Part shown: positions 1,671 to 16,908 of the stretch, one piece after another
Numbering within the stretch: the stretch's first letter is position 1
Layout of the letters: every line of letters begins with the position of its first letter
Program-made: the position numbers and the translations under genes
NCBI RefSeq assembly: GCF_003315415.1
Contig: NZ_QNSB01000003.1
Span: 340,687-404,686, forward strand
Direction: 5' to 3'
DNA: 64,000 bases
Source of the DNA: Brevibacterium sanguinis
Lineage (GTDB): Bacteria; Actinomycetota; Actinomycetes; Actinomycetales; Brevibacteriaceae
The notes under the pieces: model-generated
Databases searched by the model: none
Seen by the model: the letters and a program-made list of their open reading frames with translations, nothing else
What the model was told of the DNA's origin: nothing

Positions 1671-2230
1671 CCGAAGAATGGAAGCCAATTCCAGGCTGGG
1701 AGGGCGTCTACGAAGCGAGCTCGCTGGGCCGCATCAAGAGCCTCGCCCGCATCGTCCTCCGCGGCGGTCGTCCGATGAAGGTGGCCGAGAAGATTCTCAA
1801 GCCGAGTATCCACCACACTGGCTACCGGCGTGTGATCCTCACCCGCGGCGGGGGACGATCCGAACGCTTGGTGCACTCCGTGATCGCAGAGACTTTCCAC
1901 GGCCCGCGACCTGAAGGTTTGGAAGTCCGGCACCGCAACGGTGACAAGTCCGACAACTCCGCGGCGAACCTCGCCTACGGCACATCCGCGGAGAACAAGC
2001 AGGACATCCTCGACCACGGGCGACACCCGCTCAAGAACCGCACCCACTGCCCAGCTGGGCATGAGCTCGTCGGCGACAACCTGGTTGCATGGGAGCTCGA
2101 GCGCGGGCACCGGAAGTGCCGTGCCTGTGCGTGCGCTCACTCGAAGGTGCACCATCACCGTGAGCTCGCCCCGCATTTCCAGGCGATCGCGGACGGCTAC
2201 TACCAGGAGTTCGCAGGGGTGGCGGCGTGA
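1667..2230 (+). CDS. NUMOD4 / HNH homing-type endonuclease
   Basis: 187 residues. An N-terminal NUMOD4 motif (EEWKPIPGWEGVYEASSLGR, residues 3-22) is followed by an HNH core (VRHRNGDKSDNSAANLAYGT, about residues 87-106) with the expected His-Asn-Asn pattern. The C-terminal 60 residues hold a zinc-like set (HCPAGHE, CRACACAH). Such proteins are free-standing homing nucleases or packaging-linked nickases in phages. It sits directly upstream of, and overlaps, the cytosine methyltransferase gene. Confidence 0.85.
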   Translation: MTEEWKPIPGWEGVYEASSLGRIKSLARIVLRGGRPMKVAEKILKPSIHHTGYRRVILTRGGGRSERLVHSVIAETFHGPRPEGLEVRHRNGDKSDNSAANLAYGTSAENKQDILDHGRHPLKNRTHCPAGHELVGDNLVAWELERGHRKCRACACAHSKVHHHRELAPHFQAIADGYYQEFAGVAA

Positions 2231-3234
2231 GTGAGTTGACTGTGACTGACCTGTTCTCCGGCTTCGGTGGGTCGAGTGTCGGCCTCGAGCATGCTGGCTA
2301 CAAGACCGTGATCGCTGCGAACCACAACCCGCAGGCGGTCAAGAACCACCAGCTCAACCACCCGGACACTGAGCACCGGATCGCCAACCTCAGCGAGACC
2401 GATTTCCGCACGTTCCCGAGGACGAACCTCTGCTGGGCCTCCCCGTCGTGTGTCTGGCATACGCCGGCCGGTGGGCGGAAGAAGCTTCCCATCGTCGACG
2501 AGCTCCGACGCGAGGATGTTGGGGCAGTGGACAGGGCTACGGCGTTCGCTGTCGTCCAGGCAGCCGAGGTGCACGCCTACGAAGCGGTCATCGTTGAGAA
2601 CGTCCCGGAGTTCCGCGATTGGGTGCTGTATCAGCCGTGGATTGGGATGATGCGCGTGCTGGGATACCGAGTTCAGGAGACCGTCATCGACGCCTACGAC
2701 GTTGGCGCGGCTCAGTATCGGCGCCGTCTGTTCCTGGTGTTCACCGAGCATGGGGCTGTTGATCTGTCCCTGCCGGCCGCACCGCGGGTTCACGCCGATT
2801 CGATCCTCGAGCTCGGCGGGGAGAAGCGGGTCACGCGGCCCATGTACATCACCCCGCAACTCGAGCAGATCACCGAGGACGACGTGAGACACCTGGTGAT
2901 GTACCGGAAGAATGCTCGAGCGCATCGCGCGGACAGTCGGCCGCTGGCGACGATCACCACGTCCGGCACGCATCACGGCGTGGCATACCGCAGCCGCGGC
3001 GAATTCTTCTACCGGATGCTCAGCGCTCGTGAGCTCGCCCGCGGGCAGGGGTTCCCCGACGACTTCCAATTCGCTGGGACCGTCTCGGAGATCAAGCGCG
3101 GCATCGGAAACGCGGTCGCCGTCCCGGTCGCCCGATTCCTGGGGGAGAGAGTCGCACAGGTCCAGGGATGGGTCACCCCACCCGCCGCTCGTGACCTTGT
3201 GGCCGCGTGCGCCGAAACACTGGGGGCGGCGTGA
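2227..3234 (+). CDS. DNA C5-cytosine methyltransferase, atypical motif IV
   Basis: 335 residues. Motif I is DLFSGFGG (residues 8-15), motif VI is ENVPEF, motif VIII QYRRRLF, motif IX RELARGQGFP and motif X GIGNAVAVP, so all landmarks of Dcm-type enzymes are present. The catalytic loop reads ASPSC instead of PCQ: the nucleophile Cys is kept but the Pro before it is Ser, as in an ASPxC subgroup seen in phages. It transfers a methyl group from AdoMet to cytosine in DNA. No restriction endonuclease partner is visible, so it is probably an anti-restriction enzyme. Start GTG 2227 overlaps the previous stop. Confidence 0.9.
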   Translation: MSELTVTDLFSGFGGSSVGLEHAGYKTVIAANHNPQAVKNHQLNHPDTEHRIANLSETDFRTFPRTNLCWASPSCVWHTPAGGRKKLPIVDELRREDVGAVDRATAFAVVQAAEVHAYEAVIVENVPEFRDWVLYQPWIGMMRVLGYRVQETVIDAYDVGAAQYRRRLFLVFTEHGAVDLSLPAAPRVHADSILELGGEKRVTRPMYITPQLEQITEDDVRHLVMYRKNARAHRADSRPLATITTSGTHHGVAYRSRGEFFYRMLSARELARGQGFPDDFQFAGTVSEIKRGIGNAVAVPVARFLGERVAQVQGWVTPPAARDLVAACAETLGAA

Positions 3235-3992
3235 GCATCTACTACCAGGACGACAACGTGACCCTGTACCACGGGGACTGCGCCGAGGTGTTGCCCACCC
3301 TGGAGCCGGTGGAACACATCATCACAGACCCCCCCTACTCGGAGCACGTTCATTCGAGCGCCAGGTCGCGGAGGATGCAGGCGGCCAACGACAGGGGCGG
3401 ACGCTACGGAGCCGACATTCGACGAAACGTCGACCTCGGGTTCGACCATCTCGACCCGAGCCTTCGGGCCGCGTGTGCGGCCGAGTTCGCGAGGATCGCT
3501 ACACGGTGGGTGCTTGTGTTCTCTGACGTGGAATCCGACCACCTGTGGCGCGATGATCTGACCGCCGCCGGACTGGATTACGTGCGCACGGGCGCATGGA
3601 TCAAGATCGGCTCGACGCCCCAGTTCTCTGGCGACCGACCAGCTACCGGCTTCGAGGCAATCACCATCGCGCATCCGAAGGGGCGCAAACGGTGGAACGG
3701 CGGCGGGAAGCACGCCGTGTGGACGTTCCCGATCGTCCTCGACCGCGGGCGAACCGGTGGGGTCAGACTGCACACCACACAGAAGCCACAGGAACTCATG
3801 CACGAGCTCGTCGCCCAGTTCACCGACGAGGGCGAGACCATTCTGGACCCATTCGCCGGGAGCGGCACGACCCTTGCGGCGGCTCGAATGGTGGGGCGAA
3901 AATCCATCGGCATTGAGGCGAATGAACGGTACTGCGAGATCATCGCCCGCCGCCTCGACCAGGGCGTCCTCGACCTGGGAGGGATCGCATGA
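3231..3992 (+). CDS. Beta-class DNA amino-methyltransferase (N6-adenine or N4-cytosine)
   Basis: 253 residues from GTG 3231, which overlaps the TGA of the cytosine methyltransferase. The catalytic motif DPPY (residues 33-36) precedes the AdoMet-binding FAGSGTT (about residue 216), the order of beta-class enzymes. DPPY fits either N6-adenine or N4-cytosine methylation. Together with the upstream C5 methyltransferase it gives the phage two modifications, which would shield its DNA against several host restriction systems. Confidence 0.9.
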   Translation: MSIYYQDDNVTLYHGDCAEVLPTLEPVEHIITDPPYSEHVHSSARSRRMQAANDRGGRYGADIRRNVDLGFDHLDPSLRAACAAEFARIATRWVLVFSDVESDHLWRDDLTAAGLDYVRTGAWIKIGSTPQFSGDRPATGFEAITIAHPKGRKRWNGGGKHAVWTFPIVLDRGRTGGVRLHTTQKPQELMHELVAQFTDEGETILDPFAGSGTTLAAARMVGRKSIGIEANERYCEIIARRLDQGVLDLGGIA

Positions 3993-5489: not shown

Positions 5490-5666
5490 ATGGCACAGGT
5501 TGCAACAAAGGTCGAGCTGCTTCATGAGGTGGGCACTAGGTTCACTATTGGCGAGCTTCGGGACTTCATTGACCGCCTCGAGGCGGCCGAAAGCGACGAC
5601 GACCTCGCGGTCTCAATTTCCCCTGCGGTGGATTCGATCGTCATCACAGGCTATGTGGAGGGGTAG
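5490..5666 (+). CDS. Tiny acidic phage protein
   Basis: 58 residues from ATG 5490, with GGGAGTAG just before it as ribosome site. The centre (ELRDFIDRLEAAESDDDLAVSI) suggests one helix followed by strands. Its last base is the first base of the next GTG. Function unknown. Confidence 0.5.
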   Translation: MAQVATKVELLHEVGTRFTIGELRDFIDRLEAAESDDDLAVSISPAVDSIVITGYVEG

Positions 5667-6058
5667 TGAGCACTAGAAGCGTCAGGCCTCACGAGCATGC
5701 TTACTACAGCGCAGGCCGGTGGCTCCTGAATCAGCTCTATGTCATCGGCTGGCCGGATCTGGAAATCATCAAGGTAGGAACAACTTCAGTGGGGAGGCGG
5801 CGATACGGTCCGTTCCTTGCTCGGGGTGGAGAAATGCTCAGCCTCGCCTCGTATCCAAGCTGTGAGCACTTGGATGAGGAATCTCGCCTGCAGTCTGAAA
5901 TGAGGGCGCGGTGGCCGCCCGCATTCTCATCGAAGGTAGACGCATCCTCGGCGCTCGGCGGTCACGGTGGCGGGTACCTCGAATGCTTCCGCGTGCCGCT
6001 GTCCGATTGGCCGGAAGTGGTTGGGCTGCTGAGGGGAGTCAAGAATGGCGAAACTTAA
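5666..6058 (+). CDS. GIY-YIG / T5orf172-like protein
   Basis: 130 residues from GTG 5666. The segment LYVIGW...IIKVGTTSVGRRRYG resembles the YIG and arginine region of the T5orf172 (Mug113) branch of GIY-YIG nucleases, with a later Glu (EESRLQSEMRARW) that could be the metal ligand. The first Tyr of GIY is replaced, so catalytic activity is uncertain. Immediately upstream of the replication genes. Confidence 0.5.
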   Translation: MSTRSVRPHEHAYYSAGRWLLNQLYVIGWPDLEIIKVGTTSVGRRRYGPFLARGGEMLSLASYPSCEHLDEESRLQSEMRARWPPAFSSKVDASSALGGHGGGYLECFRVPLSDWPEVVGLLRGVKNGET

Positions 6059-6785
6059 GGGCCATCTGTTTGCTCGGCTGGCTCTAGATTACTTCGACCA
6101 CCCTAAGATTGCCGCACTTTCAGACTCGGCGATCGTCGCACATCTGGAGATGATCGTCTACTCCCGCAGGTATCTCACGGACGGCCTGATTCCGATGCGG
6201 GTGGCAATGCGCTACCCAGTGCCGACAGTAGACGAGTTGTGCTCGAATGATCCGTCGAATCCATCAGTGACGCGAAACGATGACGGTTCACTCATCCTTC
6301 ATGATTACGGGGATTTCCAGGAGCTCAAAAGCGATGTTGAGGATCGTCGCAGGTCAGGAAGGGATGCCGCCGAGAAGAGATGGTCGGGCAATGCGGGTGG
6401 CAATGCTAAGAGGAATGCCCCCGGCAATGCCCCGAGGAATACAGAGACAGAGACAGAGACAGAGACAGAGATACCCCCTATATCCCCCAAGGGGGACAAG
6501 ATGGAAGGTTTCGCCGAGTTCTGGGAAGTGTACCCACGGAAGGTCGCCAGGAAGGCGGCAATGGCAAAGTTCCCTAAATGCGTGAAGGAGGCTGGAGGCG
6601 TGCAGAAGCTCATCGACGCAGCCGAAGCCTACGCGCAGAGCGTGGAGGGGAGGCCGATTGAGAAGATCGCCCATCCCACCACCTGGCTCAACCAGGGCAG
6701 GTGGGACGACGAACTCACACTCAACCTCGACGATGAAAGGAGTTCAGGATGGAGCGATCCACTTCCGAGAGCGAACGCGCACTGA
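6045..6785 (+). CDS. Replication initiator / helicase loader
   Basis: 246 residues. The N-terminal half has a winged-helix look (FDHPKIAALSDSAIVAHLEM) and the C-terminal domain (FWEVYPRKVARKAAMAKFPK...HPTTWLNQGRWDDE) is typical of phage helicase loaders of the DnaD/DnaT kind. In between is a repetitive linker (GNAGGNAKRNAPGNAPRN then TE x5) encoded by tandem 12-bp and 6-bp DNA repeats that look like an origin. It overlaps dnaB by 37 bases, as expected for a loader and its helicase. Confidence 0.8.
   Translation: MAKLKGHLFARLALDYFDHPKIAALSDSAIVAHLEMIVYSRRYLTDGLIPMRVAMRYPVPTVDELCSNDPSNPSVTRNDDGSLILHDYGDFQELKSDVEDRRRSGRDAAEKRWSGNAGGNAKRNAPGNAPRNTETETETETEIPPISPKGDKMEGFAEFWEVYPRKVARKAAMAKFPKCVKEAGGVQKLIDAAEAYAQSVEGRPIEKIAHPTTWLNQGRWDDELTLNLDDERSSGWSDPLPRANAH
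6387..6446 (+). repeat. Five 12-bp iterons, candidate phage replication origin
   Basis: Five units start at 6387, 6399, 6411, 6423 and 6435, each exactly 12 bp apart. The consensus is (G/A)GCAATGC plus four variable bases: GGCAATGC, GGCAATGC, AGGAATGC, GGCAATGC, AGGAATAC. They lie inside the replication initiator gene, as the lambda iterons lie inside gene O. The protein made from them is a G/R-N-A-x linker. Seen directly; the origin role is inference. Confidence 0.65.
6441..6470 (+). repeat. Five tandem ACAGAG hexamers
   Basis: ACAGAG occurs five times without interruption, encoding (Thr-Glu)5. Because the unit is six bases, gain or loss of units keeps frame. It follows the iterons directly and leads into a stretch with C runs and ATA/TATA steps. 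It may be part of the origin (unwinding side) or only a flexible linker. Confidence 0.85.
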
Positions 6786-7990
6786 TCGGGTCCGTGCTCC
6801 TGTCGGGCGGCAAAGCCCTGGATGAGGTGTCCCTCGATCCGGAGGACTTCTACGAACCTCGCCATGAGAGTGTGTGGCGGATCTTCCTGGACATGCGCCG
6901 TCGTGGGGAGGCGATCGACACCGTGACCGTTAACCAGCGGGTGCAGTCGATCCCAGACCTGCGAGGGCAAGTGACTCCCGCAGAGTTGTACAGCTACACG
7001 CGGGACACCCCCACCACCGCGGCTGCTCCCGCGTACGCGAGGCATGTGGCCGAGTTGGCTACTCGCCGGCGTATCCGTATGGAGGCGTTGGCGATCGCAG
7101 ACATGGCCGTGGAGGCCGAGTCGGTGGGGGAGTTGGTGGATCAGGCTCGAGCACGGATCGAGCAGGCTGCGAGGGTGAACGTGTCTGCGGTGAAGCCGAT
7201 CGGGGCGACGATCATGCAGACGGTGCAGAACCTCCGCAAACCGATCATTTACACCCCAACACCGTGGACGAACCTCAACCATTTCATCGGCGGGTGGAGG
7301 CCAAGCAGCCTCTACGTCGTCGGCGCCCGCCCCGGTGGGGGGAAGTCCATCATGGGTGCGCAGGCCGCGATCAGCCTCACCGACTCAGGGGCGGTGGCGT
7401 TATGCAGTCTCGAAATGTCTGAGGAGGATCTGCAGTTGCGGATCATCTCGCAGAAATCGGGGGTGGACATGACTTCACTCTTGAACCGGTGCACCACGAA
7501 CCTTGAAATCGAGAAGGCGACCACTGCGGCGCAGAACCTTCTCAATGCGCCGTTGTTCATCAACGATCGGGCGGCAATGACGTTGAACGATGTGCGGTCG
7601 TTCGTTCGGTCGGTGGCCCGTCAGCAGAAGCTCGGCGGGGTGGTGGTGGACTACCTGCAACTCATGGAGGCGACGAGTAAGAAAGAGCGACACCTCGCGG
7701 TGGGGGAGCTGTCCCGCGGGTTGAAGCTCATGGCGAAGGAACTCCACGTTCCCGTGATCGCCTTGTCGCAGCTCAACCGGGGATCGGCCGATCGCCCGGA
7801 TAAGAAGCCGACTCTCTCGGACCTCCGGGAGTCTGGGTCGATCGAGCAGGACGCGGATGCTGTGATCCTCCTGCACCGGGAACACCACGAGTCGGACGAA
7901 CTGCATGTCAACGTCGCGAAGAACCGCCAAGGCCCGCCGGGATCACTCATCCTCGGCTGGCGTGGCCATAACTCGATGCTCACCGATTAG
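6749..7990 (+). CDS. dnaB: Replicative DNA helicase, DnaB family
   Basis: 413 residues. The N-terminal helical domain (ERALIGSVLLSGG...DFYEPRHESVWRIF) is followed by a RecA-type ATPase with Walker A GARPGGGKS near residue 191, Walker B-like VVVDYLQLM near 297, and SQLNR / DLRESGSIEQDAD motifs. It unwinds DNA at the phage fork as a hexamer. ATG 6749 has AAGGAGTTCAGG in front and lies within the end of the loader gene. Slightly shorter than bacterial DnaB (about 450). Confidence 0.95.
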   Translation: MERSTSESERALIGSVLLSGGKALDEVSLDPEDFYEPRHESVWRIFLDMRRRGEAIDTVTVNQRVQSIPDLRGQVTPAELYSYTRDTPTTAAAPAYARHVAELATRRRIRMEALAIADMAVEAESVGELVDQARARIEQAARVNVSAVKPIGATIMQTVQNLRKPIIYTPTPWTNLNHFIGGWRPSSLYVVGARPGGGKSIMGAQAAISLTDSGAVALCSLEMSEEDLQLRIISQKSGVDMTSLLNRCTTNLEIEKATTAAQNLLNAPLFINDRAAMTLNDVRSFVRSVARQQKLGGVVVDYLQLMEATSKKERHLAVGELSRGLKLMAKELHVPVIALSQLNRGSADRPDKKPTLSDLRESGSIEQDADAVILLHREHHESDELHVNVAKNRQGPPGSLILGWRGHNSMLTD

Positions 7991-7998
7991 GAGACCAA

Positions 7999-8220
7999 AT
8001 GGCATTGAAGGGTAAACCAAACCAGGCGCGAACCGGTGTCCTTGAGCGTTGGCTCGACAGTCTGTCGGATGACGACCGGGCGGAAGCGGAATCGTACCTG
8101 CGGGATGAGCACCATTACGGGCCGGTGAGCCTGATGAAGGCTTTCCGGCAGGACGGGTACAACGGATCTGAGGGGCCGATCAGGAGATGGCGGGAGGAGA
8201 ACCGTGGCGTTGAAGGGTAA
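7999..8220 (+). CDS. Small phage protein with HTH-like helices
   Basis: 73 residues, with TAGGAG before ATG 7999. The segment HYGPVSLMKAFRQDGYNGSEGPIRRWREEN reads like two or three DNA-binding helices. The first seven residues (MALKGKP) and their DNA are repeated at the start of the next gene, suggesting a local duplication. It overlaps that gene by 17 bases. Confidence 0.65.
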   Translation: MALKGKPNQARTGVLERWLDSLSDDDRAEAESYLRDEHHYGPVSLMKAFRQDGYNGSEGPIRRWREENRGVEG

Positions 8221-16756: not shown

Positions 16757-16832
16757 ATCGTCGTAGCTCAACTGGGAGAGCAACGGTCTCCAAAACCGTA
16801 GGTTCCGGGTTCGAATCCCGGCGGCGGTGCCA
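16757..16832 (+). tRNA. tRNA-Trp (anticodon CCA)
   Basis: Acceptor ATCGTCG pairs with CGGCGGT (two G-T pairs). The anticodon arm is ACGGT-CTCCAAA-ACCGT, giving CCA, and the T arm CCGGG-TTCGAAT-CCCGG is perfect. Discriminator G fits tRNA-Trp, and CCA (16830-16832) is encoded. Phage-borne, between the early and late regions. Confidence 0.95.
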
Positions 16833-16833
16833 A

Positions 16834-16908
16834 TCCCCTGTGGTCCAACAGGCAAGACGCTCGGCTCTGGACCGAGAAATGCGCGTTCGAATCGTGCTGG
16901 GGGAGCCA
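16834..16908 (+). tRNA. tRNA-Gln (anticodon CTG)
   Basis: Acceptor TCCCCTG pairs with TGGGGGA; anticodon arm CTCGG-CTCTGGA-CCGAG gives CTG; T arm GCGCG-TTCGAAT-CGTGC. Discriminator G and encoded CCA (16906-16908). The D stem is weak (3 bp), common in Gln tRNAs. One base separates it from tRNA-Trp, so both are probably cut from one transcript. Confidence 0.93.

Follow-up and report, generated by a model that had tools for sequence, protein, structure and literature searches.

A putative replication origin in the linker-coding sequence of a predicted phage initiator gene of Brevibacterium sanguinis

The initiator gene and its repeats

The DNA analysed here, which we call the window, is a 64,000-nucleotide stretch of the 3.77-Mb genome of Brevibacterium sanguinis. 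It contains a predicted replication initiator gene in the company of RusA, DnaB, DNA polymerase exonuclease-subunit and SSB genes, an arrangement typical of phage replication modules. An IMG/VR viral contig of 52 kb (L002) encodes an identical initiator protein, and on this ground we treat the region as a prophage. Among named phages, the best match to the initiator in our search was Brevibacterium phage Rousseau, at 51.7% protein identity. Upstream of the replication genes lie two adjoining DNA methyltransferase genes (2227-3992), the first C5-type and the second N6/N4-type; tRNA genes for Trp (CCA) and Gln (CTG) stand at 16757-16908 with one base between them. The features of the initiator locus are:

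6045..6785, + strand, predicted replication initiator / helicase-loader gene, 246 aa (ORF, PHROG 'replication initiation protein' families, homologues)
6045..6383, + strand, N-terminal domain, residues 1-113, predicted to bind DNA (AlphaFold2, BFVD fold matches)
6387..6442, + strand, five 12-bp iterons, starting at 6387, 6399, 6411, 6423 and 6435 (sequence, core positions)
6441..6473, + strand, hexamer tract ACA(GAGACA)4GAGATA, purine-rich on the coding strand (Tandem Repeats Finder, sequence)
6483..6496, + strand, inverted repeat TCCCCCAAGGGGGA, candidate hairpin (stem search 3' of the tract)
6510..6719, + strand, C-terminal domain, residues 156-225, one of several C-terminus kinds behind the same tract (AlphaFold2)
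6749..7990, + strand, DnaB-like replicative helicase, its start overlapping the initiator gene (Pfam DnaB_C 9e-72; phrog_19)

The window protein matches 14 PHROG families, among them replication-initiation families; none of the 14 is O-like. Pfam gave no family at E <= 0.1 and thus no match to Rep_3, another Rep family, DnaD or DUF1376, and a search of solved structures gave no match at E <= 0.1. Structure comparison with the PDB returned 43 matches, none of them at E <= 0.001. Comparison with BFVD returned 39 at E <= 0.001, mainly phage relatives and including named HTH proteins, replisome organizer proteins and DUF1376. In the AlphaFold2 model, block-mean pLDDT is 75-96 over residues 11-110 and the C-terminal domain is confident, and residues 120-148 of the linker fall below 50 and are disordered. 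It is this disordered linker that the iterons and the tract encode, which places direct repeats inside the initiator coding sequence.

The original prediction had described five 12-bp units in perfect phase. Their 12-bp steps are exact throughout, but only four carry a full core (GGCAATGC at 6387, 6399 and 6423; AGGAATGC at 6411), the fifth unit, at 6435, being the variant AGGAATAC. The ACAGAG hexamers described as following at once do so: Tandem Repeats Finder reports 5.2 copies with 100% matches at 6441-6471, and the run 3' of the hexamer tract is ATACCCCCTATATCCCCCAAGGGGGAC. Across the whole 64 kb, GAGACAGAGACAGAGACA with up to 3 mismatches has four overlapping matches against 0.03 expected, all in the tract, which is also the sole match to (GAGACA)3. 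The 11 nt of iteron sequence at 6396-6406, GGTGGCAATGC, occur a second time without mismatch 196 bp upstream at 6200-6210, in the N-terminal part of the gene; they are read there in another frame (V-A-M-R), within a motif found again in homologues.

Read in frame, the tract consists of GAG ACA codons. In 12 neighbouring ORFs, Thr is spelled ACA 14 times out of 120 and Asn is spelled AAT 8 times out of 70; with the codon use of these ORFs, the chance of five ACA plus five GAG codons is P = 3e-6 and that of five AAT codons P = 2e-5. The 6-bp periodicity of the tract was matched by 24 of 20,000 synonymous recodings. For the iterons there is no such excess: their 12-bp periodicity holds at 27 of 45 positions, synonymous recodings average 28.0, and 15,517 of 20,000 reach 27. 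The iteron periodicity in the window is thus not above the level implied by the peptide, and the window alone is no proof of selection on the iterons as DNA.

At 48% GC, against 55-62% in the rest of the gene, the tract is not A+T-rich. Cumulative GC skew over the window has no minimum at 6.4 kb, contrary to the skew signal that the original prediction had expected here. A coarse test for internal dyad symmetry of the iterons gave no inverted repeat pairs of 10 or more within 6200-6700. The candidate hairpin is unremarkable when taken alone, as stems of 6 or more occur in 328 of 4264 45-bp segments of the 64 kb.

Tract and iterons in related initiator genes

The initiator has 287 homologues, and we read the 120 listed. 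ETET stands behind the linker in 119 of these 120. In the 20 residues before it, identity is 0.395 at lag 4 and 0.396 at lag 8 (n=118), against 0.217 and 0.007 in a control stretch; the linker peptides themselves vary (SNAx, SHGK and others) despite this four-residue period. Behind the shared N-terminus, linker and tract, these proteins (P0001-P0120) end in several kinds of C-terminus; the sorting was by rough patterns and may divide a single domain. Such variety suggests domain swapping directly behind the ETETETE tract. At 21 loci of the window initiator type, all 75 Thr codons of the tract are ACA and all 71 Glu codons are GAG, and ACA accounts for 51 of 306 Thr codons elsewhere in the same genes. 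Some of these loci are near-duplicates; one (L003, with an EEEE tract) adds no codons, and L104-L111 were retrieved by a peptide pattern that allows any codon.

Among named phages, we fetched 13 loci from 219 matching records. GAGACA repeats are present at 8 of the 13, in phages of Brevibacterium, Gordonia, Mycobacterium and Curtobacterium hosts (L092 and L093 are near-identical). All eight are coded GAG ACA and have differing iterons upstream, for example the 12-bp-spaced AATCGCATG type in Rousseau and GCTAAGCGACCC in Typha. The remaining five, which include a Gordonia phage, comprise a GAGAGA-type tract (L102), C-rich tracts (L096, L100, L101) and one locus where none was seen (L103). Judged by eye, four of 12 further named phages have a RAGRNA-type tract (Cr-LKS3, DC33, PhiPLPE and PBR31), and Silvergun has two GATACA copies. 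The 18-mer (GAGACA)3 occurs in 2 of 396 sampled genomes of the phylum, both times inside a gene of the window initiator type. A scan of genome contigs with the patterns [AT]ETETETE and DHPKI..LS matched at least 587 stretches, from which one relative was kept.

Other repeats occupy the same place in other initiators. Actinobacterial initiators with a TWFKVDD-like N-terminus (L096, L100, L101, L350, L446, L455) have pyrimidine-rich tandem tracts there (CCCGT, CCCGA, CCCATC), followed by hairpins of 8-11 bp in L096, L101, L350 and L455. Initiators with an MRIRTIKPEFW-like N-terminus (L351, L451, L458, L461) have GGGGAACA-like repeats. In the initiator gene of Aggregatibacter phage S1249 (L349), GGTATGCCAGCAGATAGCACA is repeated in tandem as three perfect 21-bp units, with a fourth, near-identical one past a short insertion; the gene has neither 11-12 bp iterons nor a GAGACA tract.

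A second family of initiators was retrieved by N-terminal patterns only, and the best 80 of 585 loci were kept as a sample. Four were dropped for ORFs below 100 codons, and the other 76 gave 58 loci after removal of redundancy. Over the iterons of this family codon identity is 0.84-1.00, and for the last iteron together with the tract it is 0.99-1.00, compared with 0.38-0.85 outside them and about 0.4 expected from codon use. Amino-acid conservation in the tract is 0.71-0.86, lower than in most of the N-terminus. RAGRNA hexamers are present in sense at all 58 loci with their wobble bases fixed, and the amino-acid-changing position 5 is C in 227, G in 93, A in 37 and T in 4 of 361 hexamers, 205 of which are GAGACA. 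The RAGRNA motif itself fixes positions 2, 3 and 6. In a profile of 57 loci anchored on the first three tract bases only, the wobble bases through position 26 are all at 1.00, against C 0.79 at position 4, G 0.49 at 10, C 0.74 at 16 and C 0.63 at 22.

We also scanned viral contigs blindly for the 18-mer (GAGACA)3. Like the other pattern scan of viral contigs, this yielded a sample of at least 120 stretches. They held 122 tracts, of which 87 are non-redundant, 83 lie with ORFs of at least 120 codons and 80 have long enough flanks. In this sample a single PHROG replication protein family is matched by 50 of the 83 ORFs and an O-like family by 17. As controls we used 58 ORFs with ETETETET in other codons, where no family exceeds 7; these encode head proteins and proteases, and also replication initiation proteins (phrog_1408, 7 of 58). 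Their ETETETET is written in mixed codons in 30 ORFs, in pure GAAACA in 12 and in other pure codes in 16. Since the controls include initiators, the tract has other spellings, GAAACA being an example. Our own N-terminal profiles match 61 of the 83 ORFs (13 window type, 49 second type, one both) and 1 of the 58 controls; the PHROG result is the independent one, because the scan itself supplied 23 of the 26 sequences used for the second profile. Non-initiators among the 83 include a P22-type portal (L329, by sequence) and a 1538-residue low-complexity protein (L323). On this sequence evidence, (GAGACA)3 falls mostly in initiator genes. The window-type and second-type N-termini gave no alignment in profile comparison. 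The C-termini of the two families are remotely similar (64 columns, probability 97), so there is some relationship between the families, and it may be this domain that the tract accompanies.

The reading frame of the tract is not constant. Among the 87 non-redundant tracts, 77 read as ETET, 6 as DRDR and 4 as RQRQ, and some lie outside genes. Four pairs of homologous initiators have the tract in different frames (L264 and L279, 48% identity; L339 and L279, 50%; L188 and L237, 45%; L182 and L141, 30%), and L182 matches the N-terminal profile of the window family. In the 48 bp upstream of the tract, identity at lag 11 is 0.472 (n=80) against 0.292 in a control stretch (n=77), and at lag 22 it is 0.420 against 0.259. 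All three groups of ORFs, those with a match to one or other profile and those with none, show the lag-11 signal (0.50, 0.47 and 0.40). The best lag is 11 or 22 at 52 of 80 loci, compared with 22 of 77 in the control, and 12 or 24 at 10 of 80. A period of four codons, which had been thought to keep the protein in frame, thus describes the 12-bp steps of the window but not most blind-scan loci; 11 bp is not a whole number of codons, and this spacing is therefore not a peptide repeat. Conservation in relatives at the DNA level, proposed as a check on the original prediction, is clearly positive in codon identity, in the frame changes and in the invariant ACA codons. In the relatives, these sequence comparisons show selection on DNA rather than on protein for both tract and iterons.

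Hairpins and likeness to known origins

Of 85 sites, 20 have a perfect stem of at least 7 bp within 45 bp 3' of the tract; two control stretches gave 1 and 0. The stems differ in sequence, and the loop is often CTAACG. A CTAACG loop with a stem of 5 or more was found at 16 of 564 sites (12 different stem-loops, with duplicates among the loci), whereas seven control loops gave 0 to 8 of 704 to 1468. Eleven of these 16 stand behind a RAGRNA or CCCGN tract, and similar hairpins are also found behind other tract types (CCCGT, CCCGA, GGGGAACA). In the second family the signal is weak, with stems of 5 or more directly 3' of the tract at 26 of 54 loci; four control stretches gave 13, 3, 2 and 12 of the 54. 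Hairpins with the CTAACG loop and differing, internally complementary stems stand directly 3' of the tract in L284, L336, L188, L104, L110, L126, L096 and L455; on the opposite strand they would form a GTTA loop.

The lambda origin, in gene O (NC_001416), is like the window in having repeats inside the initiator gene and then a strand-asymmetric, purine-rich stretch. A helicase-handling gene comes next in both, P in lambda and DnaB itself in the window. The lambda plan of the original prediction survives to this extent, with iterons in an initiator-like linker, a special tract directly after them and the helicase gene next; an A+T-rich region like that of lambda and an O-like protein family are not part of it. 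Lambda has four annotated 18-bp iterons 20-24 bp apart, unlike the 12 bp of the window and the 11 bp of most blind-scan loci, and the lambda iterons are dyadic. Its post-iteron stretch is A-rich and, in the region read, without a GAGACA array, whereas the window tract is not A+T-rich; the window initiator matches none of the O-like PHROG families. A review (PMC5043065) describes the A+T-rich region of lambda as having almost all purines on one strand and transcription from PR as required.

Actinobacteriophage genes annotated as 'RepA-like replication initiator' (Gordonia phage CheeseTouch, L092; Curtobacterium phage Kithara, L099; others) have a homologous N-terminus, iterons, a GAG ACA tract and DnaB downstream as in the window, but other iteron sequences (GCTAAGC/GCTAGC types). 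The stretches fetched from these phages contain no annotated origin. For another RepA group, in some mycobacterial phages, PMC7157519 suggests that the origin lies within repA or a short distance upstream of it, and reports that repeated motifs were not found in the interval from the tail genes to parS-L. Rep_3-type iteron plasmids are also alike in having phased direct repeats of initiator sites and an adjacent region that is opened (PMC5043065), but the window protein is without a Pfam Rep family and the window iterons lie inside coding sequence. Our literature search, in open-licence papers, found no description of a GAGACA tract among the papers listed.

A proposed origin and its alternatives

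We propose that the linker of the predicted initiator encodes a replication origin of the lambda-type plan, composed of iterons, GAGACA tract and possibly a hairpin, and from the sequence comparisons we put the probability of this reading at roughly 0.76. The origin function of the stretch and the roles of tract and hairpin are what we infer. Copies of the initiator, bound through their N-terminal domain, would gather on the phased iterons and put the duplex under strain, and the adjoining purine-rich GAGACA tract would open for helicase loading. Transcription through the operon probably aids this opening, because the purine strand of the tract is the RNA-like strand; the pyrimidine-rich CCCGT/CCCGA tracts on the coding strand of some related actinobacterial initiators weaken this transcription-hybrid step. 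One strand would then be captured, and the C-terminal domain would hand over the phage DnaB encoded next. The iterons, which differ between phages, would provide replicon specificity, with tract and hairpin as the common parts. Being common, these are likely read by a shared factor, such as host or helicase machinery, a shared C-terminal fold or physical properties of the strands. It is close to an even bet, in our estimation, that this arrangement is a modular phage origin found across initiators with unrelated N-termini in several bacterial phyla. Such an origin would combine interchangeable 11-12 bp iterons with a common RAGRNA tract (mostly GAGACA) and often a hairpin, lie inside coding sequence in any frame, and have a tract and hairpin that shared replication machinery recognises.

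A flexible acidic linker that grows by replication slippage could produce DNA repetition as a by-product of recent duplication, with no role for the DNA itself. The low complexity and low pLDDT of the linker, the perfect hexamer copies and an iteron periodicity in the window at the level implied by the peptide are all consistent with slippage. It is nonetheless very improbable, given that variation falls on the amino-acid-changing base and spares the wobble bases, that homologues read the tract in another frame, that an 11-bp period is impossible as a peptide repeat and that ETETETET outside the GAGACA set is in mixed codons in 30 of 58 ORFs. We judge it improbable, too, that the tract serves recombination, as a junction where a short DNA word in common lets phages swap C-terminal helicase-interaction domains. 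Several kinds of C-terminal sequence do stand behind the same N-terminus, linker and tract, but a junction leaves unexplained the phased iterons before the tract, the hairpin after it, and the combination of a free position 5 with fixed wobble bases. C-terminal swapping may instead be a by-product of the word's conservation.

Alternatively, the element could act in RNA, as an antitermination or processing site of the early operon unrelated to replication. The tract is in sense at all 58 loci retrieved by N-terminus, and together with the hairpins that follow at 20 of 85 sites it could act in this way. The tie to replication-initiator genes, the protein-binding-like phased repeats upstream and the lack of any Rfam match at gathering threshold in 5600-8000 argue otherwise and leave such a role only a slight chance. 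In a further alternative, which we consider unlikely, the origin is the same and the tract is its priming site: the TGTCTC repeats of the template strand carry 5'-CTG-3', and the hairpin would hold primase. CTG is the start trinucleotide of gammaproteobacterial DnaG and may not be that of an actinobacterial primase. According to PMC5204125, E. coli and P. aeruginosa primase prime at CTG, and CTA/TTA is used in several Firmicutes. Each GAGACA repeat, the spelling of 205 of 361 hexamers, provides a template-strand CTG, and a hairpin does follow the tract. With C at position 5 in just 227 of 361 hexamers, however, the template CTG is not invariant.

The start of phage replication is rarely evident from sequence, and a short origin signature in initiator genes would locate many. 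Our comparisons suggest a shared origin element beyond the replicon-specific iterons, and swaps of iterons and tracts would make testable the long-standing question of how strands come to open and helicase to load once iterons are bound. The sequence is also a clear case of DNA function overriding protein coding, in which the silent base is fixed and the base that changes the amino acid is free.
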